Shown: piece by piece, positions 7,509 to 32,324 of the stretch | Layout: each line of letters begins with the position of its first letter | Position numbering within the stretch: position 1 is the first letter of the stretch | Assembly: GCA_027016315.1 (NCBI GenBank) | Contig: JALWAP010000076.1 | Span: forward strand, 1 to 37,866 | DNA from: Anaerolineae bacterium | GTDB taxonomy: Bacteria; Chloroflexota; Anaerolineae; S016-19 | Direction of reading: 5' to 3' | Length of the DNA stretch: 37,866 nt | Program-made: the position numbers and the translations under genes | The notes under the pieces: model-generated | Told to the model about the DNA's origin: nothing | The model's database searches: none | The model's input: the letters and a program-made list of their open reading frames with translations, nothing else

Positions 7509-8138
7509 CTACCCTAACCCCTGTTCTTTGGCGTACCTGGCTGCCTCCGCTCTGCTGGAAACACCGAGCTTGGACAAGATGTTGCTTACGTGAGTTTTAA
7601 CCGTCTTCTCGCTGATCCCCAATTCTTTAGCGATCTCCTTGTTGGTCATGTGATGGGCGATAAGGCTGAGCACCTCAAGCTCCCGCTGGGTAAAAGACTC
7701 CCCACCGATAAAACCTGGCCCCTCCCTGACTTCCCTCATAAGCATCCTCGTTATCTCCGGATGCAACACTGGCTTCCCTTCGGCTACGTTCCGTACCGCC
7801 TCTATGAGCTCGGATGACGAAACCGTCTTGAGCACGTACCCCGCAGCTCCGGCGCGAACCGCCGGGATCACCATGCGGTCGTCCAGCGCACTGGTGAGAA
7901 CCAGTACAGCCACGTCGGGCATCTCCTTGTTGACGATACGCAGAACCTCCAATCCGTCCATCTCCGACATTATCAAATCCAGGAGCAGCACATCCGGTTT
8001 CTTTTCCCGGACGAGCGTCACGGCTTCTTTCCCGTTCGTAGCTTCGCCTACGACTTCGATATCTGGCTGGATGTCCAGAAACATCTTCAGACCCTCTCTC
8101 ACCACTTGGTGGTCTTCAGCAATGACGATGCGTATCAT
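7509..8138 (-). CDS. NarL/LuxR-family response regulator
   Basis: This 209-residue protein has a receiver domain (1-120) with acidic pocket Glu8/Asp9, phosphoacceptor Asp54 (VLLLDLIM), Thr82 and Lys104, joined to a C-terminal LuxR-type helix-turn-helix (about 146-205) with the conserved run TNKEIAKELGISEKTVKTHV. On phosphorylation it should bind DNA as a dimer. Its ATG at 8138 overlaps the TGA of the histidine kinase gene as ATGA (8135-8138), so the two are co-translated. Targets are not evident; the convergent DUF2202/DUF4405 genes are the nearest candidates. The gene ends 2 bases beyond the shared bidirectional terminator's T-run. Confidence 0.95.
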   Translation of the reverse strand: MIRIVIAEDHQVVREGLKMFLDIQPDIEVVGEATNGKEAVTLVREKKPDVLLLDLIMSEMDGLEVLRIVNKEMPDVAVLVLTSALDDRMVIPAVRAGAAGYVLKTVSSSELIEAVRNVAEGKPVLHPEITRMLMREVREGPGFIGGESFTQRELEVLSLIAHHMTNKEIAKELGISEKTVKTHVSNILSKLGVSSRAEAARYAKEQGLG

Positions 8139-14385: not shown

Positions 14386-15621
14386 CTATGCGGTTGATTC
14401 TCTCCTCAGCCAACGTTCCACCTCTTCCGGAGGTGCGATGTTGCGGGGGTATTTTGGATTGAGTTCGATCCGCTTCAACTCCTGTCCAATACCCATCCGC
14501 ATCAGGTAGTATCGGACGAACTGAGGGCGGGTCATACCGCCGCGCTGGCTCTTGCTCAATCGCCAGGCCCAGGAAAGGAACTTGTAGGCGATCCGTTCTT
14601 CGCTGTATTGGCGATACGGTTGTTGCTTGGTCAGCACGTGCCAGAGGATGACCAACAGCTTTCGGGCAATGACTACAATGGCATCGTTCGGGTGTTTGCG
14701 CCGGGTCAGGCGCTGAAACACTTGCTTCCAGAAGGGATCGGAGCGCACTGCGCTCCAGGCTGCTTCCACCAGGGCGTGGCGTAGCTCCTTCCGCCCTTCC
14801 TTGGTGATGGGCTTGGCCCGGTGTTTTGTGCCGCTCTGCTCTACGCCTGGTGCCAAGCCTGCATAGCTGATCAGATGTTTTGGAGAAGGAAAGCGATGGA
14901 TGTCTCCGATGGCAGCTAAGGTTGTCATCGTGGTAATCAAGCCAAAGCCTGGAAGCTGCATCAAGTACATGGCTTGAGAAGCCCAGGGTTCCTGGTGGCT
15001 GAGTTCGGCAATCTTGTCAGTGATGTGCGCGATCTGCTGCTCCAGGTAGTGGAGGGTTTCCAGGTCCAATTCCACCTGGAATCGCTCCATGTCGGTAAGA
15101 GCATCCTTCCAGGAAGTGGTTTCAGGAGTGAAGCGTTTACCCTTGGGGTGTCCCAAATGGTGGCTGTGGGAGACGCTATGAAGGCGGTTGGCGACTTTGG
15201 TGTGCATTCCCACTAGGCGACGACGTTGGGTCATCAGTTGGCGGAGTTCTCGCACGTGGTGAGGAGGCACCCATACTTCTGGGATCAAGTTTGCCGCCAG
15301 GAGACGGGCAAGGATCAGGACATCACTTTTGTCCGTTTTGCGGCGGCTCTCGGCGATCTGGCGGACTTTGCGTGCGTGAGCCACCTTGACTTCTGCGACT
15401 AAAGGGGATAGCATGTCGTAGACGTGGTAGGCGTTGGTGGTGGCCTCAATGACCACCACGTCGGTGGGGAAGAGGTGCTTCTGAGCCCAGTTGGGAAGGC
15501 GATCGTTGTCTATCCGTCGTGGGGGAAGGAGCACCTCTCCATCCCGGTTCACGGCAGCGGCCACTGCATAGTGCTTGTGTAGGTCCAGAGCAACATATCG
15601 AGGTTGGCTGGAAGCGTTCAT
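14386..15621 (-). CDS. IS110-family DEDD transposase/recombinase
   Basis: This intact 411-residue protein has an N-terminal RuvC-like DEDD domain with Asp13 (ALDLHK), Glu60 (VVIEAT) and Asp98/Asp101 (KTDKSD). A C-terminal Transposase_20 domain follows, starting around MQLPGFGLIT and continuing through YAGLAPG and the region HRAKPITKEGRKELRHAL, which holds the family's conserved features. In characterised members this enzyme works with a bridge RNA that pairs with both target and donor DNA. The ATG at 15621 follows GGAGGTAAGCC, a good ribosome site. No frameshift or stop interrupts the gene, so the element may be active. Confidence 0.93.
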   Translation of the reverse strand: MNASSQPRYVALDLHKHYAVAAAVNRDGEVLLPPRRIDNDRLPNWAQKHLFPTDVVVIEATTNAYHVYDMLSPLVAEVKVAHARKVRQIAESRRKTDKSDVLILARLLAANLIPEVWVPPHHVRELRQLMTQRRRLVGMHTKVANRLHSVSHSHHLGHPKGKRFTPETTSWKDALTDMERFQVELDLETLHYLEQQIAHITDKIAELSHQEPWASQAMYLMQLPGFGLITTMTTLAAIGDIHRFPSPKHLISYAGLAPGVEQSGTKHRAKPITKEGRKELRHALVEAAWSAVRSDPFWKQVFQRLTRRKHPNDAIVVIARKLLVILWHVLTKQQPYRQYSEERIAYKFLSWAWRLSKSQRGGMTRPQFVRYYLMRMGIGQELKRIELNPKYPRNIAPPEEVERWLRRESTA

Positions 15622-16015: not shown

Positions 16016-16171
16016 AGACAGTGGCAGGACGAAAGAGGGAACAGCCGGAAAGGCCTTCTTGGCAGCCGAAGCGGCATTTTCCGCCATCATTCGCTCCGCC
16101 GGAAGCAGAGGAAAGGGCACCTCATAGCTTCGTTGTTTCCCGTCGTTGGAGGTCATCAGGAGCAAGAAGCG

Positions 16172-19100
16172 ATGCGAGAACTACGGGTATTTTTTCTCGG
16201 CAGGTTCGAACTTCATTACAGACAAAGCAGCGAAGCGGAATGGAAGAAACTTACCCTCCCCCCAACTGCCAAATCCAGATCTTTGCTGGCCTACCTGATA
16301 ATCCACCGTGACATCGCACACTCCAGGGATAAATTGTCGGAACTCTTTTGGGGCGATGCCCCCCAGAAAAAGGCCAAGCGCTCTTTATCCACCTCACTGT
16401 GGCACATCCGTCGTTGTTTTCCCGAAGACGCCGATCCGGTGAAGTCCGATACGAAATGGGTGCAGTTTGACTTTCCGGGAGCGCTCACGGTGGATGCAGA
16501 GCAAATCGAGATGCTGTGTAAGGGGAACTCCACGGATTCTCTTCAGTTATGTGTGAACCTGTACAAAGGGGATTTCCTCACAGGGTTTTACGACGATTGG
16601 GCAGTCAATCTGCAGTACCGACTGCAATCGATCTTCATGGGTTCCTTGGAACGGCTGATGAAAGGCCATGAGGCTTCTGGGAACGATGCTGAGGCTTTGG
16701 AAGCCGCACTCCGTCTGCTGGAGCTCGATCCCCTTTCAGAGTTGGCCTATCAAACCTCGATGCGGGCATATCTGCGCCTGGGACAGCGGGAAAGGGCTCT
16801 GAAGATGTACGAGCGACTTGTGACGAATCTCCGGCAGGAGCTGGGTGCCGAGCCATCGCCTGAAACAAAGGCTCTCCATCAAAGGATTCTGGATGGAACT
16901 TGGGCAGAAGATGCTCCACAGGCGTCTATCGAGCTGAAAAGAAACGCATCCTTTCCGAGAAAAGGACTCCATTTAGAGAGTTCCCCTCCGCTCGTTGGGA
17001 GAACCGCCGAGATGAGCTCCCTTCGAGAACTGTGGAGGAAAGCCGTGCAGGGTGAGCGACAAATCGTATTCCTTCACGGAGAATCCGGCATAGGGAAAAC
17101 GAGGCTGACCCTGGAGATGGGGCGGTACGTGCGCCAGCGTGGCGGTGTGGAGCTGCGAGGGGATTGTTCCAGGTACGAGCAGAGCGAGCCTTACGGTCCC
17201 ATGGTGGAAGTCCTCAGGGAAGCTGTCGGGACCAGCGGCGACGCTTTGCTCACCTCCATGCCGGAATGGCAGATCTCCGTGCTGGCGCGCCTGGCACCGG
17301 AGATATCGCGGAGATCTCCCGGAAGAGGCGTTTTCGGGCCTGGAGCCGAAACGGAACAAAAGCACCTTTTCATCGCTCTGACGAACCTGCTGGCCTCAAT
17401 TGCCCGTAGAGCGCCTCTGCTTTTGACCATCGAAGACCTGCACTGGGCTCACAAATCTACCCTGGCCTGGTTGGACATTCTGGCGCACCGTACTTCCACG
17501 GCACCGATGATGTTGCTCCTTACCTTTCGAGACGAAGAAATGCATCGGGGGCAACTGCTGCCGCACTTCGTGATCGAATTGCAAAAAGAGGGGTTGGCGT
17601 CGAGCCTGACGGTCGATCGTCTCTCCAGGGAAGCGCTGAGAACCTGGCTGAAGGGATTGGACGATGGACTCATACTACAGATCCACAATCACACGGAAGG
17701 CAACCCCTTCTTCGTTCTCGAAACCCTGAGAGCACTGCAAGATCAGCGGAAAATCGCGGCCGAAGGTACATCCTGGAGAGTGCTGACCCCCGTAGAACAC
17801 CTCCCGGTGCCGGATACCGTGCGCAAGGTGGTAGAAATGCGCCTGCAACAACTGCCGATCGGAACAAGGAGGTTCCTCGAGATAGCGGCGACAATCGGCA
17901 GATCGTTCGACTGGGACGTCCTGGTGCTTGCCTCCGGGTACAGCGAGGAATCTTCGCTTGAGCACCTTTCCGCCCTGTTGGAGCGGCAGATAGTGCGCGA
18001 AGCCCAGGGAGCGTTCTCGCATGACTACGAATTCGAGCATCACCTCGTCCACGAGACCGTATACAGCTCCATCTCGGAAAGTCGCCGAAAGAAGTACCAC
18101 GAATCCATCGCTAAAGCCCTGGTGGAGCTACGGAAAGGTTCCCCAGGGGAAGCATCTGAGATAGCGTTCCACCTTTCGGAAGCTGGCAATAGGGATGCTG
18201 CCAGACCATTTTTCCTGGAAGCGGGGGATTACGCTGCCACCGTTGCAGCGGTGGACGAGGCAGTAGAACACTATCGGCAGGCGCTGGAGTCTATTCAAAG
18301 CCCCGGAGAGGGACTACAAAAGGCGATCCTGAACAGGAAGATTGGGGAAGTGTATTTTCACAAAGGAGAGCTTCCTCAATCTGAAGAACGGCTCAAGGCG
18401 GCTTTACGTTTGCTCGATAGGCCGTTCCCCGAGGGTACATGGTCCATAAGGATCGCGATATTGAAGGCCTTGAGCAAATACGCTACCTCATGGCTCTTCC
18501 CCTTGGGCGTGCAAAAGCGGGAGAAAGGCATCTCTACGAGTATCGAAGAGGAAGTGGACGTATACACCACTCTGGGTTGGATCTACAGCGTGCAGTCCCG
18601 CTACGAAGAGTACCTGGTGGTCTCCATGCGCGCTCTCAACGTCTCCAAGAGAAGCGGCCTTCAGCGGGGAGTGGCTATGGCTGCAACTGCGTTGGGCCTT
18701 GCCGCGGATTTCATACCCATGTTCTCTTTGGCGGAGCATTTCTACAAGATGGCGAACAAGGCGTCTGCTCAGGTGACCCGACCCGCCGAAAAGGGGTTTG
18801 TCCATTTTGGCCAGTCGTATCACAGCTATTTGAGGGGAAGGGGAGCAGAGGCCTTCAAGCACGCCAGGCTCTCTTCCGAGGGCTATCTCCAGGCAGGCGA
18901 TGTGCACAGGTGGGCTCTGAGCATGCAGATACAGGCATATGTGCATGAACATCGGGGTGATCTGAAGTCGATGGAAGCAATCTCGTCGGAAGTCCACCGC
19001 ATCGGGACGGAAATGGAAGCGCCGCGTGCTGTTTGTGCAGGAGAAGCTCTGATGGGAGCGCTGTCGAGGCACAAAGGGGAATTGGAGGAAGCGATTTGTC

Positions 19101-19687
19101 ACGCCCGGCGAGCTGTCAGCCTCGCCGAGCAATTGCCCGATTACCTTGCGCTCGCCGAAAACCTTGGCGATCTCGGGAGATGCTATCTTATGGCGGGTGA
19201 TTGGCCGTCGGCGTGGTCGGCGCTGAAAAAGGGCGAAGAGATCGTCTCTCGGCACGATGTGCAAGGCGATTCTCTTGGACGGTTCCTCAACAGCATGGCC
19301 GAGGCGTACCTGGCGGCAGCCGAAGATTTCTTCCCTCGTCAGCGTTCCCAGTGGCTGCGTGAGGCAAAGGAAGCTGTCAAGAAGGCCTTGAAGCAGGGAC
19401 GCGCCTTCGTCCCTGGACTTCCGGAGGCTTACCGCCTTAAAGGACGTTACGAATGGCTTTCGGAGCATCCAAAATCGGCGATCAAGTGGTGGAATCGATC
19501 CATCGAGCTCGCTTCCCAGCTCGGAAACGCCATGGATGTCGGCATCACGAGCCTGGAAATGGGATTGCGCACGAGTGATAGAGAACTCTATAGGAAAGGG
19601 GAAAACGAGTTGCTTGCTCTCGGGGCGCTCTGCGAGATCGAGCACGTGAAAAACTCCTTCCTGAAGGGCAGTACCGCCCTGCAGTAA
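16172..19687 (+). CDS. BTAD/SARP-type activator with AAA ATPase and TPR domains
   Basis: This 1171-residue regulator starts with an OmpR-like winged helix (about 1-100) in which KSRSLLAYLIIH and LSELFWGD are typical. A bacterial transcriptional activator domain follows (about 105-245, ending ELGAEPSPETKALHQRIL). Next is an AAA_16 ATPase (from about 274; Walker A GESGIGKT 303-310, Walker B-like LLLTIEDLHWAH), then a long helical TPR region to the end. Large regulators of this plan (AfsR/GutR/MalT-like) integrate ATP and ligand or protein binding. The ATG at 16172 follows AGGAG by 8 bases; an ATG at 16133 lacks a ribosome site. A direct repeat of the type such proteins bind lies just downstream at 19828-19848. 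Confidence 0.93.
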   Translation: MRELRVFFLGRFELHYRQSSEAEWKKLTLPPTAKSRSLLAYLIIHRDIAHSRDKLSELFWGDAPQKKAKRSLSTSLWHIRRCFPEDADPVKSDTKWVQFDFPGALTVDAEQIEMLCKGNSTDSLQLCVNLYKGDFLTGFYDDWAVNLQYRLQSIFMGSLERLMKGHEASGNDAEALEAALRLLELDPLSELAYQTSMRAYLRLGQRERALKMYERLVTNLRQELGAEPSPETKALHQRILDGTWAEDAPQASIELKRNASFPRKGLHLESSPPLVGRTAEMSSLRELWRKAVQGERQIVFLHGESGIGKTRLTLEMGRYVRQRGGVELRGDCSRYEQSEPYGPMVEVLREAVGTSGDALLTSMPEWQISVLARLAPEISRRSPGRGVFGPGAETEQKHLFIALTNLLASIARRAPLLLTIEDLHWAHKSTLAWLDILAHRTSTAPMMLLLTFRDEEMHRGQLLPHFVIELQKEGLASSLTVDRLSREALRTWLKGLDDGLILQIHNHTEGNPFFVLETLRALQDQRKIAAEGTSWRVLTPVEHLPVPDTVRKVVEMRLQQLPIGTRRFLEIAATIGRSFDWDVLVLASGYSEESSLEHLSALLERQIVREAQGAFSHDYEFEHHLVHETVYSSISESRRKKYHESIAKALVELRKGSPGEASEIAFHLSEAGNRDAARPFFLEAGDYAATVAAVDEAVEHYRQALESIQSPGEGLQKAILNRKIGEVYFHKGELPQSEERLKAALRLLDRPFPEGTWSIRIAILKALSKYATSWLFPLGVQKREKGISTSIEEEVDVYTTLGWIYSVQSRYEEYLVVSMRALNVSKRSGLQRGVAMAATALGLAADFIPMFSLAEHFYKMANKASAQVTRPAEKGFVHFGQSYHSYLRGRGAEAFKHARLSSEGYLQAGDVHRWALSMQIQAYVHEHRGDLKSMEAISSEVHRIGTEMEAPRAVCAGEALMGALSRHKGELEEAICHARRAVSLAEQLPDYLALAENLGDLGRCYLMAGDWPSAWSALKKGEEIVSRHDVQGDSLGRFLNSMAEAYLAAAEDFFPRQRSQWLREAKEAVKKALKQGRAFVPGLPEAYRLKGRYEWLSEHPKSAIKWWNRSIELASQLGNAMDVGITSLEMGLRTSDRELYRKGENELLALGALCEIEHVKNSFLKGSTALQ

Positions 19688-21652: not shown

Positions 21653-23074
<1,422 letters not shown>

Positions 23075-23085
23075 CTATGCCCTCC

Positions 23086-23925
23086 TCATTCCTTGACCGC
23101 TCCTGCAAGCCCCCTGACGAAGTATCCCTGGAACATCAAGAAAACGAGCAACACCGGGATGATGGAGATCACGGTTCCGGCGGCAAAGCCTGTCCAATCA
23201 AAGGAATGCTCGCCTTGGAACGCGTACATCCCCACCGCCAAGTTCCGAAGGCTCGGCTTGCCGAGGGTGAAGATCAACGGGATGTTGAATTCGTTCCACG
23301 TGTGCATGAACTGAAAGATTATCACTGTAGCAATGACCGGGCGGGTCAAAGGTAGCACGAGCTTGAACGTCTGCCAGAAATTGGCTCCATCCATCTTGGC
23401 AGAATCGAACAAGTCGGAAGGTATCGTTTCAAAGAATCCAGTGAAAAGCAGGATGTAGAGCGCTCCGGAGCCTCCCGAAAGGACCAGCATGACCCCCAAT
23501 CTCGTATCGAGCAGTCCGAGTTTTTGAATCAGTACGAACTGAGGGATGATGATGGAGGCTATCGGTATGAAGAGCGTGGCGAGGATCAGCTTGTAGAGAA
23601 AGTCCCGCCCGAAGAACCGGTACCTGGCAAGCGCGTATCCTGCCATCGAGGACTTCAAAAGCTCCATCACGGTCGCCGTTACCGCGTAGAGCACCGTGTT
23701 GAAGAAGTACTGGTTGAACTTGGCTTTCGTCCAGGCTCTGACGTAGTTGTCCAGCACGATCTTATGCGGAATGAAATCTGCCCCGCTCAAGAACATCTCT
23801 CTCTGGGTTTTCAGCGACGCTCCCAGGATCCAGAAAAACGGGTACAGCCACAGAAAGCCCAGGACCAGCAGGATGGGTATGACTACCAAGTTGTATCTTG
23901 TGAACCGGCTCTTCTTGAGATGCAT
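23086..23925 (-). CDS. Sugar ABC transporter permease (MalG/CUT1 type)
   Basis: This 279-residue inner-membrane permease has six TM segments and the cytoplasmic coupling (EAA) motif KMDGANFWQTFKLVLPLTRP in the second half. The N-terminus (RYNLVVIPILLVLGFLWLYPFFW) and the C-terminal FVRGLAGAVKE are typical of MalG/UgpE-type carriers of oligosaccharides. GGAGGGGTG precedes the ATG at 23925. It lies 16 bases after the MalF-type permease gene and 11 bases before uxaC. The pair forms the channel for the solute bound by the lipoprotein encoded upstream; no ATPase gene accompanies them. Confidence 0.94.
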   Translation of the reverse strand: MHLKKSRFTRYNLVVIPILLVLGFLWLYPFFWILGASLKTQREMFLSGADFIPHKIVLDNYVRAWTKAKFNQYFFNTVLYAVTATVMELLKSSMAGYALARYRFFGRDFLYKLILATLFIPIASIIIPQFVLIQKLGLLDTRLGVMLVLSGGSGALYILLFTGFFETIPSDLFDSAKMDGANFWQTFKLVLPLTRPVIATVIIFQFMHTWNEFNIPLIFTLGKPSLRNLAVGMYAFQGEHSFDWTGFAAGTVISIIPVLLVFLMFQGYFVRGLAGAVKE

Positions 23926-23941: not shown

Positions 23942-24883
23942 TCAGATTCCGTACGTTTTCTTCAGCTCTTGCGCTTTGCTCACGAAATATCCCTGAACGC
24001 TAACTATGCCGAGAGCCGTGAAGCCAAAGAGAAGCGCTGCGGCGGATGCATACCCGTATCGGAACGGAATCTCGCTGAACGCCTGATTGTAGATGAAGTA
24101 GGAAACGACGTAGGTCTCCTGCCCCGGGCCTCCGCTGGTCATCGTCACCACCAGTCCGAACACTTTCAGCGCGTTTACGAACGCCAGGAACAAAATGATG
24201 ATGGCAATCGGTTTGATGATAGGGAGAGTGATCTTCACCAACTGAGTCCACGGCCCCGCACCGTCCACTTCGGCGGCTTCGTAAAGCTCTTCCGGCACGT
24301 TCTGGAGAGCGGCCATCCAATAAACCATGTACTGGCCGAAAATCTGCCAGACGGAAACGACGACCAGCGTCAGCAAGGCGGTCTTCCCGTTGCCAAGAAA
24401 ATCGATCGGGCGATGGATGAGGCCTATTTTGAGCAGAGCGTCGTTTACAGCACCGTTGGCCGGATTGAGCAACAGCACGAAAACCATGCCGGCCATCGCC
24501 ACAGGCAACACCAGCGGAGTGAAGTAAACGGTTCTGAAAAACTTCTTGAACCTCAGCCATTTTCTGGTGAGGAGTATGGCCATGAACAGGGAAAGGGGCA
24601 GCTTGATAATGGTGTTCAATATGGCAAACAGTAGCGTGTTCTTGAACGAAAGCCAGAAAATAGGGTCTCTCAGAATATCGATGTAGTTCTTCAATCCCAC
24701 GAAATTGGTCAGTGGGTGCACCCCGTCCCAGTCGAATAGGGAATAATATCCCGTAGCTACGATGGGCCAGAGAGTGAAAGCTCCGTAGAACAGGATGAAG
24801 GGGAGCAAAAACATCCAGATCCACGGCAGATCTTCTTTTCTCGCCCTTTCCGCTATCTTGATTTTTGCGCTGTTTTCCGCCAT
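23942..24883 (-). CDS. Sugar ABC transporter permease (MalF/UgpA, CUT1 type)
   Basis: This 313-residue permease has six TM segments and a typical EAA motif, EAAEVDGAGPWTQLVKITLP, that contacts the transporter ATPase. The charged N-terminal 22 residues precede the first TM (WMFLLPFILFYGAFTLWPI). The ATG at 24883 has AGAGG about 8 bases upstream. It is separated from the solute-binding protein gene by 90 bases containing a strong hairpin, and from the second permease gene by 16 bases. With that partner it forms the membrane pore for oligosaccharide uptake. Confidence 0.94.
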   Translation of the reverse strand: MAENSAKIKIAERARKEDLPWIWMFLLPFILFYGAFTLWPIVATGYYSLFDWDGVHPLTNFVGLKNYIDILRDPIFWLSFKNTLLFAILNTIIKLPLSLFMAILLTRKWLRFKKFFRTVYFTPLVLPVAMAGMVFVLLLNPANGAVNDALLKIGLIHRPIDFLGNGKTALLTLVVVSVWQIFGQYMVYWMAALQNVPEELYEAAEVDGAGPWTQLVKITLPIIKPIAIIILFLAFVNALKVFGLVVTMTSGGPGQETYVVSYFIYNQAFSEIPFRYGYASAAALLFGFTALGIVSVQGYFVSKAQELKKTYGI

Positions 24884-24973: not shown

Positions 24974-26551
24974 CTATGGTCGGTGCTTTGCGTAGTTTGC
25001 AGGGTCGAAGTCTTCGTTGTAGTTCCATTCCGGATACGCATAGCACTTCAACGATACCTTCAAGCCCTCAGTCTGTTCCTTCTTGAGCGTCTCCAGGAAC
25101 ACCTTGTTCTCTGCCGCGGCGATCTCCTTGGCCTTGGGAGCAAAGTCAGAGCCGGACGTGAGGGCTTCCACCATGGCCTCCCACTCCCAGTTTCGATGGA
25201 GGTTCACAGCGTTCTCCCACGCCTTGGACTTGGCGACGTCCGGGCACGCCACCACAGGTTCAGGATAGAGAACACGGAGGTGCTGCGCGATCTGTACCAT
25301 CTGCTTCATAATCGGGTCTTTGATGTACTTCTGGTTGTCCGCGTAAGCCAGCGTGCCGAATCCGCGGGAGAGGTACTCCCTGGCGAAGTATCCATCGGGA
25401 CGCGTCATCCACTCGATGAAGAGCCAGGCTTCCTTCGGATGCTTGGTCTGGCTGCTAACGTAGTACTTGTTCTCCGTCAGGCTGCGGGAAAGGGCTCCGC
25501 GAGGGCCGTTGTCGGGATAAGGCGGAGGAGCAATTCCGAGATCCAGGTCCTCGAAGCCCATCTTCTTGAAGACGCTGGGCATCCAGGCACCGCCGAAGTA
25601 AATGGCGGCTTTGCCGGTAGCCATTGCCTGCCTGGCGAAAGTCTTGTCGTTGACGCCGGGCACCACCAAGCCTTCCTTGTAGAGCTGCTGGATGAAGTTG
25701 AACGCCCTGAGCAACTTGGGATCGTCTATGCAGAACCTGCCGTTCTTGTAATCGAAGAACCTGTCGGTCATGATGGAACCGGCGATCGGGTACCACGTCC
25801 TTTGGAAGTCCTTCCCCTTGAGCGGCACCGCGAGGCAGTAAGCGCCGGTCTTCTCCTTTATCGTCTTGCAGACTTCATGCAGCTCGTTCCAGGTCTTGGG
25901 CGGTTTGTCCGGATCGAGACCGGCTTTCCGGAAGACCGCCTTGTTGATGTACATGTAGCCGGGGCCCCACACTTTGTTGTCGTTGAACGGGAACGAATAG
26001 ACCTTCCCATCCTTCATGTTGACCCCTTCCTGGAAAGAGCCTTTCGGCCAGCGGGCCATCCATTCCTCTGAGACTTTTCCTGTTGGGCTGAGCGGCCTGA
26101 TCCATCCCTGGTCGAGGAGTTCCATGGCGGTCATCACCCTGTTCCTGCCGATCCAGAAGAAGATGTCCGGCGATTTACCGCTCTTGAACATCAAAGGCAA
26201 CGCCTGCCGGTACTGCTTCTGTGCCATGGTCTCCCAGTCGATGGTGATCCAGGGATATTCCTTCTTGAATTCCTTGGCCACGTCCTTGTAGAAATCCGCC
26301 TGCTCCTGCGACCAGTTCATGATCTTGAGGGTTACCGGCTCGTGCTTCTCCTTGGTAGGAGCAGGAGCTTTGGTGGGAGCGGGAGCCTTTGCAGGCTGAG
26401 CCGGGGCGGATGTAGCCGCAGGTGCCTTCGTCGGCTCTGGCGCCTTAGTGGGAGCAGGCGCGGGTGTTGGTGTGGGCTTTGCCTTGGCGCAGGCGGAAAG
26501 CACCATGGAAACCACCAGCAAGACTGCCAATACCTTCCAGTACTTCTTCAT
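24974..26551 (-). CDS. Extracellular solute-binding lipoprotein (family 1)
   Basis: This 525-residue binding protein has a lipoprotein signal ending LSAC (Cys21). A Lys/Pro/Thr/Ala-rich stalk follows (about 22-72) and then a two-lobed family 1 binding fold opening with VTLKIMNWSQEQADFYKDV. Aromatic residues along the sequence (many Trp and Tyr) suit oligosaccharide binding. The start at 26551 is chosen because AGGAGGTG lies 6 bases upstream and the signal peptide begins there; the frame is open far upstream with no support. It delivers substrate to the two permeases encoded downstream. The candidate repressor site at 26661-26675 lies in its roughly 180-base upstream region. Confidence 0.94.
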   Translation of the reverse strand: MKKYWKVLAVLLVVSMVLSACAKAKPTPTPAPAPTKAPEPTKAPAATSAPAQPAKAPAPTKAPAPTKEKHEPVTLKIMNWSQEQADFYKDVAKEFKKEYPWITIDWETMAQKQYRQALPLMFKSGKSPDIFFWIGRNRVMTAMELLDQGWIRPLSPTGKVSEEWMARWPKGSFQEGVNMKDGKVYSFPFNDNKVWGPGYMYINKAVFRKAGLDPDKPPKTWNELHEVCKTIKEKTGAYCLAVPLKGKDFQRTWYPIAGSIMTDRFFDYKNGRFCIDDPKLLRAFNFIQQLYKEGLVVPGVNDKTFARQAMATGKAAIYFGGAWMPSVFKKMGFEDLDLGIAPPPYPDNGPRGALSRSLTENKYYVSSQTKHPKEAWLFIEWMTRPDGYFAREYLSRGFGTLAYADNQKYIKDPIMKQMVQIAQHLRVLYPEPVVACPDVAKSKAWENAVNLHRNWEWEAMVEALTSGSDFAPKAKEIAAAENKVFLETLKKEQTEGLKVSLKCYAYPEWNYNEDFDPANYAKHRP

Positions 26552-26660
26552 GAGTTTCACCTCCTGTTGAAAATTAGTCTTAAAAACAAAGGTCCAAACT
26601 ACGTTGGTCGATTCCCTGCGTTTTCTTTTCCGGTTCTCACCCCCTTCCTCGTTTATTTGC

Positions 26661-26675
26661 TGGTCTATATTGGTA
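26661..26675 (-). promoter_or_regulatory. Candidate operator for the GntR-LacI regulator, transporter arm
   Basis: The minus strand reads TACCAATATAGACCA, matching 13 of 15 bases of the site before the GH3 gene. It sits inside a larger imperfect palindrome, CTGGTCT (26660-26666) with AGACCAG (26677-26683). A possible -10 TAAAAT lies 12 bases upstream (26693-26688), so the bound repressor would block initiation or early elongation. The two ACCA blocks are 10 bp apart, on the same face of the helix. Confidence 0.6.
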
Positions 26676-26729
26676 CAGACCAGATAAATTTTAAAACGAT
26701 CCCCCTGCCTGGGATTTGGAACTAGCGTA

Positions 26730-27875
26730 TCATTGCAGACGAGCCGTGGATGCCCTCTCGATGAACTTTGCCTGAATGAGGAGCGTGTGCGGCTCGGAGC
26801 GATCTCCGGCAATTCGCTTAAGAAGGGTCTCCGCTCCAACCCTCCCAATCTCGTTGCCAGGCAGCGCCGATGTGGTCAGCGGAACGTCCATGTGGCGCAC
26901 TGTAGGCAGATTGTCTACCCCCACGACGGACACGTCCTCAGGTATCTTCAAGCCGATTTCCCTTAGAGCTTTGTACACGCCCATGGCCATGATGTCGTTG
27001 AAGCAAAAGACGGCGGTAGGCTTGTCGGAGCCTCCCCCATTCCATATCTCCATGGCTTTCTCGTACGCTGGGGCAGCAAGGTGCTCGTCGGGTATTCCGT
27101 CGGAGGTGGCGGGGATGCTCAAGGGGGGCAGGGGGACTATGTGAGGAGGAAGTCCCGCTTCTTCCATCGCTTTCCTGTATCCCTCAGCCCTATCACGCCC
27201 CGTGCTGTAGTCCAGCAACCCCATGTGAACGATGTTTTCGTGCCCCAGGTCGATCAGGTGTCTGGTAGAAACATAGCCGATCATCTCATTGTCCGGAGCA
27301 ACTGAGTCTCCTCCGATCCATGGCTCTCGCCGGCCGAGGGAGACCACGGGAATGTCCATTCGCACCAATTCCCTGACAACTTCCTCCTTGCGCCCAAACC
27401 TCGGAGGGGTAAGCGCGAGCCCTACCAGATCCTGCTTCTTCAAGTCCTCGATGATGTTGAGGAGCTCCTCAGCCTGGTCGTTGTGCATGTGCATTGCCAT
27501 GGAATACCCGGCCTGCCGGATCACGTGGTTGAACGAAGCGGCAAGCTGGGGATAGAAAAAATGGAAGTTCGTGCTCGATACCACAAGCCCGATTGTTCCT
27601 GCCCGGTGGTTGTCCTTCGAAGTTTCCAGAACGAAGGTGCCCGCTCCGGGGAAGCTCTTGGTCAACCCGGCCTGGTTGAGCGCGGTGAGAGCCTGACGAA
27701 TGGTACCCCGGCTCAGCCCAAGCCTCTCCTGCAGCTCCCGCTCGGAAGGGAGTTTCTCCCCTACTTTCAGAGTGCCGTCGAGTATCTGTGAATATATGGC
27801 CTGCCGCAGTCGAATGTGGATCGGAGCGGAAGCCTGCCCTTCGATAGCCTGTCTCACCCTTTCGATATCGAGCAT
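26730..27875 (-). CDS. GntR-LacI hybrid transcriptional repressor (AraR-like)
   Basis: This 381-residue regulator has an N-terminal GntR winged helix (about 18-83; LPSERELQERLGLSRGTIRQ is the recognition part) fused to a LacI-type periplasmic-binding-like ligand domain (about 94-381; TIGLVVSS, HLIDLGHENIVHMG, FCFNDIMAMGVYKAL, PLTTSALPGNEIGRVGAETL). This is the AraR architecture, in which a sugar releases the repressor from DNA. The ATG at 27875 is chosen because the winged helix begins there; its ribosome site is weak. It lies between the transporter operon and the divergent glycosidase genes, and matching 15-bp motifs occur before both. The inducer is probably a uronic-acid-containing sugar or its degradation product, by inference. 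Confidence 0.93.
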   Translation of the reverse strand: MLDIERVRQAIEGQASAPIHIRLRQAIYSQILDGTLKVGEKLPSERELQERLGLSRGTIRQALTALNQAGLTKSFPGAGTFVLETSKDNHRAGTIGLVVSSTNFHFFYPQLAASFNHVIRQAGYSMAMHMHNDQAEELLNIIEDLKKQDLVGLALTPPRFGRKEEVVRELVRMDIPVVSLGRREPWIGGDSVAPDNEMIGYVSTRHLIDLGHENIVHMGLLDYSTGRDRAEGYRKAMEEAGLPPHIVPLPPLSIPATSDGIPDEHLAAPAYEKAMEIWNGGGSDKPTAVFCFNDIMAMGVYKALREIGLKIPEDVSVVGVDNLPTVRHMDVPLTTSALPGNEIGRVGAETLLKRIAGDRSEPHTLLIQAKFIERASTARLQ

Positions 27876-27939
27876 TTGTACCCCATCTTCTTTGGTGTGT
27901 CCGGAGGAACCGGGCGATAAATCGTGTACGACGGCTTGC

Positions 27940-27967
27940 ATTATACCGAGATCGGATGCTTTGTGAA
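27940..27967 (-). promoter_or_regulatory. Promoter of the GntR-LacI regulator gene
   Basis: On the minus strand TTCACA (27967-27962, 5 of 6) and a perfect TATAAT (27945-27940) are 16 bases apart. Transcription would start near 27933, giving a leader of about 58 bases. Confidence 0.7.
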
Positions 27968-28049
27968 AAATCTGCCACTACAGATATACCTGAGCTATCC
28001 AGTTCGCCCTCCACAGAAATTCCCAGGCACCATAACGCTTTCTTCGTTT

Positions 28050-28078
28050 TTGACAGCCTACCGATCTCCTGCTATACT
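28050..28078 (+). promoter_or_regulatory. Strong promoter of the GH3-DUF2264 operon
   Basis: TTGACA (28050-28055) and TATACT (28073-28078) are exactly 17 bases apart. The transcript would start near 28085, immediately before the candidate repressor site at 28092-28106. Confidence 0.8.
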
Positions 28079-28091
28079 TGTTGCTGTCGTA

Positions 28092-28106
28092 TACCAGTAT
28101 ATACCA
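28092..28106 (+). promoter_or_regulatory. Candidate operator for the GntR-LacI regulator, glycosidase arm
   Basis: TACCAGTATATACCA lies at about +7 to +21 of the predicted transcript, the classic position for a blocking repressor. It matches the transporter-arm site in 13 of 15 bases and has the same orientation relative to the controlled gene. The flanking GTATACCA (28089-28096) and GTATATACCA (28097-28106) form a tandem repeat. Confidence 0.65.
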
Positions 28107-28152
28107 ATTTCAGGTAAGTGTCAAATCACGAACCACGAAAGGAGAGAATGCC

Positions 28153-29895
28153 ATGGAGAAATCCGACTTCATCGAATCGATCCTTAGCAAGATGTCTCTG
28201 GAACAGAAAATCGGTCAGTGCGTCGTCGTGGGGATGTCTGGGACAGTCATTACGAACGACCTCAGGGAAGCGATAACCCGGTATCACGCAAGCGGGTTGA
28301 GGGTGTCCCCGTTCGCCAGGATCTTCAGGTATTTCAGTGACGACAGGGCAAAGAAACAGGAACTGGGTGAGGACTTTGTGCCATCGATGCAGAAAATCGC
28401 CAAACAAGGCGCTCCCCCATACGCCACGCCAGAGCAGTTCGCCGCTACCTTGAACGAGCTGAAGGAGCTCGCCAGTCGCCGATCCCCGGCCATTCCGCTC
28501 CATATCGTGATAGACCAGGAAGGCGACACCAGCAAGGATTACTCCCGCGGTGGCGTCGTCCAGTTCCCGTCGAACATGGGGATCGCAGCAAGCAAGGATC
28601 CGGACGTGGCGTACCGGGTGGCAAAAGCGATCGCCAGGCAGATGAAAGCCGCGGGGCTGGACGTGATCCATTCGCCGGTGGTGGACGTGAACATCAACCC
28701 GAACAACCCGGAAATCGGCAGACGCGCGTTCGGCGACGATCCGGAACTGGTCTCGGAGTTCGCAATTGCGATGGTGAAAGGCTTCAAAGAGGAAGGGGTG
28801 ATCGCAGTGGCAAAGCATTTTCCCGGGCGTGGAGATTCCGCCACGGACGCCCACTTCGCCTGCCCAGTCCTGAACGTGGACGACAAACGATTCCATGAGG
28901 TGGAACTGTACCCGTACAAGCGGCTCATAGAGGCAGGCATCGATTCGATCATGGTTGGGCACTGTCTGTACCCACACATCGACCCGGACAACATCTCCAG
29001 CGTCTCTCGCAAGATCATCACTGGCCTCCTGAGAGAAGAGCTCGGCTTCCAGGGGGTCATCACCACCGACAGCATGACGATGGGCGCGCTCATCGACAAA
29101 TACGGCGTGGGAGAGGCGTGCGCCAGAGCGCTGGCCGCCGGAGCTGACATCGTCCTGATGAAAGCGGAGAACCAGTGGCGCGGCGAGATGTTCTACACAA
29201 TCAGGAAATGGGTGGAAGAAGGTCGCATCCCAGAGGATGAGCTGGACGACAAGGTGCGCAGGATACTCGGCATGAAATACGATTACGGCTTGTTCGAGAC
29301 CATGGGGATCGTGGACGCATCGAAAGCTTCCGAACCGTTCTCCGATCCGATCATTGTCCAGACCTCGAAACAGGCAGCCAGGAAAGCAATCATGGTGCTG
29401 AAAGACGATCTCGGCGCGCTGCCCCTGGACAAGAGCAAGAAAGTGCTTCTGATCAACCAGTTGAACACAATCAAGACCCCCAACGACCTGTACGACCATC
29501 CGGGGCTCTTCTCCCAGCTATTGGAGGAAGAGTGGCCTGAGCTACAGACTTACGAAACCGACTTTGGGTACAACGAAGAGGACGAAGAAAAGGTCGTCAA
29601 GTTTGTAGAGGAGCACGATTACGATCTGATAATCTGCACCAATTTCTACGACCGAGCAGCCAAGCCACACACCTACGTCAAGACTCTCATCGACAAAGGG
29701 TATCCGGTGGTGCTGATAACCAACACACCGTACCGGATCAAAGGAACAGGCGGGCTTCTGACGGAAGCACCGACGATCATCCTCAACATGAATCTCACGC
29801 CCGAAGGCTACAGGACTACAAGAGAAGTGCTGTTCGGCAGGCTCACTCCGGAAGGGTCGTGGCCGTTGAAACTGTACAACCCGTTCAACCTGTAG
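28153..29895 (+). CDS. GH3 glycoside hydrolase, NagZ-like beta-N-acetylhexosaminidase
   Basis: This 580-residue protein has no signal peptide and is probably cytoplasmic. Its N-terminal barrel carries the NagZ-branch hallmark KHFPGRGDSATDAH (221-234), with Asp232/His234 as the likely acid-base dyad, and TTDSM with nucleophile Asp306. A GH3 C-terminal domain (about 410-580) follows. The Asp-His dyad is known from beta-N-acetylglucosaminidases and related phosphorylases, so removal of a HexNAc or a closely related beta-linked sugar from imported oligosaccharides is likely. The ATG at 28153 follows AAAGGAGAG. The gene lies under a strong promoter with a candidate operator and 11 bases upstream of the DUF2264 gene. 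Confidence 0.9.
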   Translation: MEKSDFIESILSKMSLEQKIGQCVVVGMSGTVITNDLREAITRYHASGLRVSPFARIFRYFSDDRAKKQELGEDFVPSMQKIAKQGAPPYATPEQFAATLNELKELASRRSPAIPLHIVIDQEGDTSKDYSRGGVVQFPSNMGIAASKDPDVAYRVAKAIARQMKAAGLDVIHSPVVDVNINPNNPEIGRRAFGDDPELVSEFAIAMVKGFKEEGVIAVAKHFPGRGDSATDAHFACPVLNVDDKRFHEVELYPYKRLIEAGIDSIMVGHCLYPHIDPDNISSVSRKIITGLLREELGFQGVITTDSMTMGALIDKYGVGEACARALAAGADIVLMKAENQWRGEMFYTIRKWVEEGRIPEDELDDKVRRILGMKYDYGLFETMGIVDASKASEPFSDPIIVQTSKQAARKAIMVLKDDLGALPLDKSKKVLLINQLNTIKTPNDLYDHPGLFSQLLEEEWPELQTYETDFGYNEEDEEKVVKFVEEHDYDLIICTNFYDRAAKPHTYVKTLIDKGYPVVLITNTPYRIKGTGGLLTEAPTIILNMNLTPEGYRTTREVLFGRLTPEGSWPLKLYNPFNL

Positions 29896-29906: not shown

Positions 29907-31955
29907 ATGAAGAGAATCCAATTTACTCAACCTTTCGACTACGAAAAATCGCCTTTCAGCGGGTGGACGAGAAAGCACTGGGAAGAAGCGTTCTTCGTGC
30001 TGATGAAAGGGATCGTGGACAACGCGTCCGAAGGCGGTGCTCGACAGAGGATACCAGGCCAGCGGAGCCATCACGGCCGCCTGGCAGACGAACTCGAGGG
30101 ATTCACCAGGTCGGGCTTCATGGCAGGCCCGTGGCTCTACAGAAGCAACACAGGGAAATACACCATAGGCGACGAGGAAGTGGATGTGGCGGGGTTCTAT
30201 CGGAAAGGAATACTGGCCGGGACGAACCCCAATCATCCCGAATACTGGGGTGACGTGGTAGACTACGCTCAGCACCTGGTGGAGTGCGCCGCGCTTTCCT
30301 GGTTCCTATACCTTTCCAGGAAACATGTTTGGGATCAATTCTCCGACAGCGAGAAGAAACAAGTCGCCGAGTACCTCTACCAATGCACCCAGGTGAAATA
30401 CCACCACAACAACTGGCTGCTTTTCAACGTGATCACCAACACCGTACTGAAAAAGCTCGGTATGCCGTATTCACAGGAGCAGATAGACGAAAACCTCTCC
30501 GCGTGCGACCACATGTACATCGGCGAAGGATGGTATCGCGACGGGAACATCAACCGCATCGATTACTACAACGCCTGGGGATTCCACTTCTATTACTTGC
30601 TTTGGGTGCTTCTGGACGGAGAATCGAAGCCGGAAATCGCCGAGATGCACAAACAGCGGGTGCGAGAGTTCGTCAGGAATTTCAGGTACTTCTTCGGCGC
30701 AGACGGGGGCACTCCATGCTTCGGCAGGTCCATGATCTACCGGTTCGGGTACCTATCGCCGATCGCCCTGGGGCAATACCTTGGAGCTCTGGACGTCCCG
30801 CCGGGTGAGGTGAAGACCATGGTCAACCTGGGAGCCAAGTTCTTCCTGGAGAAGGAGATCATCACGGATAACGGGTTCCTGGGGATGGGGTATATGAGAC
30901 CTTGCGAGGCCATGCTCGAGCACTACTCTTGCGGCGGTTCGCCTTACTGGGCGGCAAAAGCGTTTTCCATTCTGCTGATTCCGGAAGACGATCCATTCTG
31001 GAGTGTCCCGGAGGAGCCGCTGCCGATCCATCGAAAGAGCTATTCCATTCCGATACGAAGTGCTGGTCTGCTTCTGATCGGCGACCACAAGACCGGGCAT
31101 GTGCAACTGATCAACCACAAGTCGTATCACGATCACGAGGAATACAACGCCAAGTACACCAATTTCGCCTATTCGTCCATTTTCAGCTACGAAGCCCGTG
31201 CCGTGTATGGCTCTTTCAATTGCGACAACAGCCTGCAGTTCTCCGAAGATGGCATTTTCTTCAAACAAAGGTGGAACATGGACACCCTTTTCGTCGAGAA
31301 GGACTTCATCGCGTCCACCTACCCGCTCCACGGGGTAGACGAAGAGGGACGAGCCACCACCTACACCCTCGTGAAAGACGACTTCATGGTGAACTTCCAC
31401 CAGGTCGCGACGAAAAAATCGCTGATCTTCAGGGAAGGCGGGTATCCGTTGGGCTTCGATGAAGGAGAGCCGACGGTAACGTCGGTTCCGGGCGGAGAAC
31501 TCGCTTACAAGGACGGAAAACTCACTTTCCTTCGCAACCTGTATGGCTATCAGCGCCAGGTGCAGGCGACTCCGTACTACGAAGTCCTTGGCGGCACTAA
31601 CGTGCGGTATCGACATAGCGTCGTGCCGAGGCTGGAGTACGAGAACAAAGGAAAGCATCTCTTCTATCTGGCCTCCATGGTGTACGGCAAGGTAGGGTCG
31701 GATTCAATCCAGCAGCTCATGTCGCTGGTCACAGAATTCAAAGTAGAAGGCAACATCGCCACGGTCCGATTCTACGATGGGGAAGCGGCCTTGATGCAGA
31801 TAGGAGAGGTAAATGGAATCCAGGTTAGGCTGAATGGGGTGTCGTTCTCCGGGCCGATAGTGCTTGCAAGGGTCGATGCCAGCGGGAAAGACCGCTTTGT
31901 GCTTTATCGGAATGGCAAGGTAGAGACGAACTGGGAGAAGTATATGCGTAGTTGA
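29907..31955 (+). CDS. DUF2264 family protein, probable uronidase-type glycosidase
   Basis: This 682-residue protein has no signal peptide. The N-terminal 400 residues look like an (alpha/alpha)6-type helical barrel rich in Trp/Tyr/His (FSGWTRKHWEEAFF, HHNNWLLFNVITNTVL, EGWYRDGNINRIDYYNAWGFHFYYLLW). The C-terminal part is mainly beta. This matches DUF2264, which I recall being placed in CAZy family GH154 with beta-glucuronidase activity; I am fairly but not fully sure of that assignment. TAGGAGG lies 8 bases before the ATG at 29907, and the gene follows the GH3 gene by 11 bases. With uxaC across the locus, release of glucuronate from oligosaccharides is the likely role. Confidence 0.87.
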   Translation: MKRIQFTQPFDYEKSPFSGWTRKHWEEAFFVLMKGIVDNASEGGARQRIPGQRSHHGRLADELEGFTRSGFMAGPWLYRSNTGKYTIGDEEVDVAGFYRKGILAGTNPNHPEYWGDVVDYAQHLVECAALSWFLYLSRKHVWDQFSDSEKKQVAEYLYQCTQVKYHHNNWLLFNVITNTVLKKLGMPYSQEQIDENLSACDHMYIGEGWYRDGNINRIDYYNAWGFHFYYLLWVLLDGESKPEIAEMHKQRVREFVRNFRYFFGADGGTPCFGRSMIYRFGYLSPIALGQYLGALDVPPGEVKTMVNLGAKFFLEKEIITDNGFLGMGYMRPCEAMLEHYSCGGSPYWAAKAFSILLIPEDDPFWSVPEEPLPIHRKSYSIPIRSAGLLLIGDHKTGHVQLINHKSYHDHEEYNAKYTNFAYSSIFSYEARAVYGSFNCDNSLQFSEDGIFFKQRWNMDTLFVEKDFIASTYPLHGVDEEGRATTYTLVKDDFMVNFHQVATKKSLIFREGGYPLGFDEGEPTVTSVPGGELAYKDGKLTFLRNLYGYQRQVQATPYYEVLGGTNVRYRHSVVPRLEYENKGKHLFYLASMVYGKVGSDSIQQLMSLVTEFKVEGNIATVRFYDGEAALMQIGEVNGIQVRLNGVSFSGPIVLARVDASGKDRFVLYRNGKVETNWEKYMRS

Positions 31956-32020: not shown

Positions 32021-32324
32021 TTGGACTGGGGTTCAGGATGATATAGAACTTGGCTTCTAATGTCAAGAGAGCTTGAGAGCTTTGCTACCCTTCACAGCGC
32101 TTCTTGTCCTTTTTTGGAGCGCCCGCGACGAAGAATCTTGAACATCCATTTCCAAACAGCTTCACACTATCCATTCCGAGTTTTCCCTGGTATAGGGTTT
32201 GGCACGCTCCCCTTCATCCCCCTGACATGTCCCAACCCATGCTCAAAGGCCCACATTGCTTCTTGACAGGACGATGTTACGTGCATTATCATGGCTTCGA
32301 CCAACATCGAGAGAGGCAGGATCT
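32021..32324. other. Intergenic region with promoter at its right end
   Basis: Apart from the promoter at 32263-32292 I see no gene, stable hairpin or repeat in these 300 bases, which are locally richer in A and T than the neighbouring genes. Confidence 0.4.
32263..32292 (+). promoter_or_regulatory. Promoter of the small membrane protein gene
   Basis: A perfect TTGACA (32263-32268) and TATCAT (32287-32292, 5 of 6) are separated by 18 bases. The start point would be near 32299, about 26 bases before the ATG. Confidence 0.6.

Follow-up and report, generated by a model that had tools for sequence, protein, structure and literature searches.

The question raised by this locus is whether two similar short sequences on either side of a regulator gene are the operators through which that regulator controls its neighbours. 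The window (the whole stretch of DNA that was analysed, 37,866 nucleotides) carries a uronate locus in which the genes for glucuronate isomerase UxaC (21653..23074; Pfam UxaC, NCBIfam glucuronate isomerase above cut-off), two ABC permeases (23086..23925 and 23942..24883; both Pfam BPD_transp_1), an ABC solute-binding protein (SBP; 24974..26551; Pfam SBP_bac_1), and a GntR-LacI regulator (26730..27941; Pfam GntR 45-104, Peripla_BP_3 227-399) lie on the minus strand, followed on the plus strand by those for a GH3 enzyme (28153..29895; Pfam Glyco_hydro_3) and a DUF2264 protein (29907..31955; Pfam). The regulator, SBP, and GH3 identities given by an earlier reading of the sequence alone (the sequence-only reading) were borne out by these Pfam matches. 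Upstream of the locus, an IS110-family transposase (14386-15621) and a large BTAD-AAA-TPR (SARP/LAL-like) regulator (16133-19687) are encoded.

A 15-mer was located upstream of the SBP gene (TACCAATATAGACCA, 26675-26661, minus strand; site 1) and another upstream of the GH3 gene (TACCAGTATATACCA, 28092-28106, plus strand; site 2). The sequence-only reading had taken them for matching operators of a self-contained regulon with the consensus TACCARTATAKACCA; the 13/15 identity, coordinates, and strands it gave are exact, and each 15-mer reads toward the gene downstream of it. The pairwise match by itself is marginal evidence, because 119 of 3000 shuffled pairs of both intergenic regions (~4%) contain a 15-mer pair of at least 13/15. 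Pattern searches were performed genome-wide, and matrix scans (see below) covered the window and selected loci of the same genome. Allowing up to three mismatches, the consensus was found twice in the window (0.70 expected; no enrichment) and 38 times in the draft genome (41 for a reversed-pattern control), i.e., at background level and with no added regulon members. Exact matches in the 2.45 Mb draft genome are confined to the two sites, which fits a small local regulon. One more match had two mismatches (C140:10404) and was dropped, as that locus has no matrix score above 5. The frequency among shuffled pairs and the background level of looser matches would both suit a chance likeness of two AT-rich promoter segments; conservation in the genus and in distant loci, together with the matrix p values at two different promoters (0.001 and 0.004), makes this highly improbable. 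It is conservation that gives both 15-mers their significance.

A same-genus genome (G032, Anaerolineae MAG S016_19; loci L031/L045) contains the complete locus with a regulator of 95% identity. Both 15-mers are unchanged there although the intergenic DNA is only 79-81% identical, site 1 lying inside an identical run of 27 nt (26660-26686) and site 2 inside one of 19 nt (28090-28108). Regulator orthologs of 46-54% identity were found in seven distant loci (L034, L035, L039, L043, L044, L046, and L047) from four further genomes of the class and two other MAG contigs; a phylum-wide search for more regulator orthologs returned none beyond those of the class, and the family is rare. A related site adjoins the regulator in all seven distant loci. 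In five of them, the regulator gene is divergent from an SBP gene and the shared intergenic region has the site, as in TACCGGTAATTACCA, TACTGGTAATTACCAGTA, TACCGGTACGTACTGGTA, and TACCAGTCCGTACCA; in L034, the site is at the start of the regulator and opposite an oxidoreductase gene; in L039, it is flanked by the regulator and a GH2 gene. In the four contigs of sufficient length, the distant SBP genes are followed by two permease genes and then GH2. In six of the seven loci (all except L039), GH88 is preceded by a second site, AACTGGTAnnTACCAGTT or a close variant, with KduI-family and KduD genes beside GH88 in several of these. One operator by the regulator plus another before an enzyme operon is thus a family trait, as the sequence-only reading had proposed for the window. 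The orthologous regulator is common to the window and the six GH88-KduI-KduD loci, and so is the transporter except in L034, whereas the enzymes differ: GH2 and GH88-KduI-KduD are encoded there, and UxaC, GH3, and DUF2264 in the window. The GH3-DUF2264 operon was found together with this regulator in just two genomes, which belong to a single genus. Directly visible in the sequence are the sites and their conservation, the fact that they co-occur with the regulator, and the promoter-like hexamers described below.

Across the family, the operator is a palindrome (AACTGGTAnnTACCAGTT/TACYRGTAnnTACCAGTA), and the operator unit is best described as an inverted repeat with the core TGGTAnnTACCA and its flanks rather than as the 15-mer. 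Hence, while both sites behave as expected of operators of the regulator (conserved, and present with every ortholog found), the consensus TACCARTATAKACCA does not represent the recognition unit. The 15-mer consists of two half-sites in the same direction, TACCA and KACCA, 10 bp (one helical turn) apart. The best palindrome centres are 26676.5 (site 1) and 28100.5 (site 2); the right half of the palindrome is formed by the first half-site of the 15-mer in site 1, where the second is the extra half-site, and by the last one in site 2, where the first is extra. As the right half is a different one in each site, the shared 15-mer aligns the palindromes 10 bp out of register. The operator of site 1, ATCTGGTCTGTACCAATA (26668..26685, minus strand, upstream of SBP), has the core TGGTCTGTACCA (26671-26682) and departs from the family consensus at several positions. 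Its extra half-site GACCAG (26660..26665, minus strand), found by a half-site scan one helical turn downstream, together with the palindrome contains the 15-mer (26661-26675). The operator of site 2, TACCAGTATATACCAATT (28092..28109, plus strand, between regulator and GH3), comprises the palindrome CCAGTATATACCAA and an extra TACC half-site, and includes the 15-mer (28092-28106); its palindrome is imperfect, one half being good and the other weaker (CAGTATATACCA). GntR-type operators are defined as palindromes of the form NyGTNxACNy (PMC4494728). Site 1 has this form as an exact TGGTnnnnACCA (26671-26682), and site 2 retains GT and AC with one half weaker. GntR-family sites are known to have extra half-sites at 7-12 nt from the centre (PMC4494728), and in a crystal of the NagR DNA-binding domain additional domains are located toward the DNA ends (PMC4333415).

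Two other readings, in which a head-to-tail dimer or oligomer binds the direct repeat TACCA-N5-KACCA as the functional unit, or in which the regulator is an activator, were weighed against a palindrome-binding repressor. The 15-mer with its direct half-sites 10 bp apart is common to both sites and unchanged in the same-genus genome, and some GntR-family proteins (NanR, NagQ, GabR) read direct repeats (PMC4494728); most distant sites, especially those before GH88, are nevertheless near-perfect palindromes without the extra half-site, and the position of the operators at or after the predicted transcription starts suits a repressor rather than an activator. Both readings together are considered improbable.

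For recognition of the palindrome, a symmetric 18-position matrix was built from 13 distant sites with the window sequence excluded; since the distant regulator-side sites had first been spotted using the window 15-mer, the test is not fully blind. Among 37,849 window positions, the highest scores were obtained at 7889 (15.0), 26668-26685 (12.7), and 28092-28109 (12.1), followed by 8.2 for the next position. The top match (7889-7906) lies inside a response-regulator gene and was rejected as a chance match, while the second and third are sites 1 and 2, whose scores shuffles of the same promoters reach at p = 0.001 and p = 0.004, respectively. Shuffled windows yielded 0.08 matches of at least 12 compared to three observed, and zero such matches were found in 78.6 kb of other loci of the same genome. 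The window sites score 12-13, below the training sites (13.7-29). The palindrome CTGGTAnnTACCAG with up to three mismatches occurs at 686 places per strand (control: 460) and was discarded as too loose for a search pattern. Repeated AACTGGTAATTACCA in the genome of one relative (G243; C23, C102, C110, C148) belongs to repeat-rich intergenic stretches and was not counted as operators; these short palindromic repeats (L078 2765, L079 3856, L080 3916, L081 852) are similar to the operator and would raise the number of motif matches in that genome.

The position of the sites relative to predicted promoters bears on how the regulator would act. Site 2 sits between two near-perfect face-to-face promoters that were absent from the sequence-only reading. 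The one directed toward GH3 (28050..28078, plus strand) has TTGACA, a 17-bp spacer, and TATACT (28073-28078), with a predicted start at ~28085; the one directed toward the regulator (28096..28124, minus strand) has TTGACA (28124-28119), a 17-bp spacer, and TATACT (28101-28096), with a predicted start at ~28089. Both match the consensus at 11 of 12 positions, a quality reached by only five promoter-like sites in the window, and the same-genus genome retains the four hexamers and the two spacings, although the spacers themselves have diverged. Two diverging sites of 11/12 quality were also observed just downstream of DUF2264 (32031-32299; minus strand 32066-32038, plus strand 32263-32292). The predicted GH3 and regulator starts are only 4 bp apart and face each other, so that each transcript would cross the promoter of the other; the polymerases would exclude one another. 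Site 2 covers the -10 of the regulator-directed promoter. Because it lies between face-to-face promoters, one of which reads back to the regulator, autoregulation through this site is likely. A second candidate promoter for the regulator (TTCACA-16-TATAAT, 27940..27967, minus strand) has its -10 kept and its -35 changed in the same-genus genome. Before SBP, a -10-like TAAAAT (26688..26693, minus strand; 5/6 match) is replaced by TCTAAT at equal distance in that genome; no -35 was recognisable upstream of TAAAAT, and judged by the consensus the SBP promoter is weak. The similar spacing from the -10 reported by the sequence-only reading holds for the 15-mers, which begin 12 (SBP) and 13 (GH3) bases after the hexamer, and is lost for the palindromic 18-mers, which begin 2 and 13 bases after it. 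In distant loci with a recognised promoter, the operator centre is within ~12 bp of the predicted start, as expected of a repressor.

The regulator itself has the architecture by which the AraR subfamily of GntR regulators is defined (PMC4494728), i.e., an N-terminal GntR winged helix and a C-terminal LacI/GalR-type effector domain; alignment of the orthologs suggests a start codon at 27875 (residue 23). Residues E67, R78, and R82 are invariant in nine orthologs, and were set by eye against E30, R41, and R45 of AraR, the helix residues discussed in PMC4218819 (match to AraR domain 4egy, E = 1.1e-8). The two-domain layout is that of Bacillus subtilis AraR, which represses its own gene along with operons for the uptake and breakdown of sugar (PMC4218819), as is proposed here, and a palindrome with the core GTAnnTAC at several sites is a further shared feature (PMC4218819). 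Of the AraR consensus At(T/A)tGTaCGTAcaa(A/T)T, however, only this inner part is found, with TGG/CCA as flanks; the genes under AraR are those for arabinose, whereas UxaC, GH3, DUF2264, and an ABC transporter are the neighbours in the window. The effector domain matches PurR- and RbsR-like LacI proteins better than AraR (3tb6, only at 2.5e-21). By operator flanks and genes, the regulator is thus not AraR itself. The closest solved DNA-binding domain is that of NagR/YvoA; in the NagR/YvoA and HutC dre sites, as here, GT and AC are 4 nt apart, and in native NagR/HutC sites one half is often strong and the other weak (PMC4333415), as in site 2. NagR/YvoA and HutC have a UTRA effector domain, in contrast to the LacI-type domain of the regulator, in which no Pfam match to UTRA was found; by its effector domain, the regulator is not HutC. 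The closeness to the NagR/YvoA DNA-binding domain, and the presence of two UTRA-domain (HutC-type) regulators in the genome, would suit an assignment of the sites to another GntR-family regulator of the HutC/NagR type, reading TGGTnnnnACCA as dre-like, with the GntR-LacI protein acting elsewhere or sharing them. This is held to be quite improbable: in each of the ortholog loci, across at least six genera, the sites are found together with the GntR-LacI gene, and both UTRA genes are on other contigs with no matrix match above 3 in their flanks. The two sites very probably serve as operators for the GntR-LacI repressor whose gene lies between them. Counting against this are the imperfect palindrome of site 2, the departures of site 1 from the consensus, the window scores below those of the training sites, the weak SBP promoter, and the confinement of the GH3-DUF2264 operon with this regulator to one genus among the genomes in which it was found.

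Regarding the sugar, the nearest solved relative of the GH3 enzyme is a beta-N-acetylglucosaminidase (PDB 6k5j), and the DUF2264 protein has relatives among the beta-glucuronic acid dehydratases of the former GH154 family (PDB 8oi4, 9o4u, 9nwf, the last two being solved dehydratases; PMC12269599). These two kinships suggest oligosaccharides of the GlcA-GlcNAc type. This pathway reading is tempered by GH88: in the published system, such dehydratases work with this unsaturated uronyl hydrolase, which was not found in the draft genome of the window or the same-genus genome (both incomplete drafts). A KduI-family gene in the genome of the window (C150) was set aside, as its product is IolB-like and an operator is lacking in the vicinity. 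With UxaC here and GH88, KduI-family, and KduD proteins elsewhere, the orthologous loci suggest that the inducer is a uronate-containing oligosaccharide, often an unsaturated one, or its breakdown product.

It is considered likely that an AraR-like repressor controls its own gene, the operon for a uronate-oligosaccharide transporter and UxaC, and GH3-DUF2264. When the inducer is absent, a repressor dimer would occupy the TGGTAnnTACCA palindrome, positioned at the transcription starts or immediately downstream of them, and block RNA polymerase, with the extra half-sites one helical turn away probably strengthening binding. We infer repression from the operator position and the AraR precedent. 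Site 1 would govern the SBP-permease-permease-UxaC operon and site 2 the GH3-DUF2264 operon, and as site 2 lies on the -10 of its face-to-face promoter, the repressor would limit its own synthesis. The transporter would import a uronate-containing oligosaccharide, and this sugar or a product of it may bind the LacI-like domain and release repression. A more far-reaching version, in which one repressor and its operators stayed with the transporter while the enzymes were swapped (GH88-KduI-KduD vs UxaC-GH3-DUF2264), DUF2264 makes the same unsaturated uronyl sugar as a common inducer, and a single operator between face-to-face promoters switches between enzyme and regulator transcription, is speculative and rather unlikely.

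A search of open-access papers found no description of a GntR-LacI uronate regulon in Chloroflexota/Chloroflexi. Established knowledge is not overturned, and the locus can soundly be regarded as a real, conserved, local regulon, an ordinary local control circuit apart from its compact overlapping promoter pair. For a rare lineage of GntR-LacI regulators, a predicted binding motif and regulon are provided, the motif to be used in experiments is corrected from the 15-mer to the palindrome, and autoregulation is added as a likely feature. Relatives of the DUF2264/‘GH154’ glucuronate dehydratases would thereby be tied to a uronate-sensing circuit.
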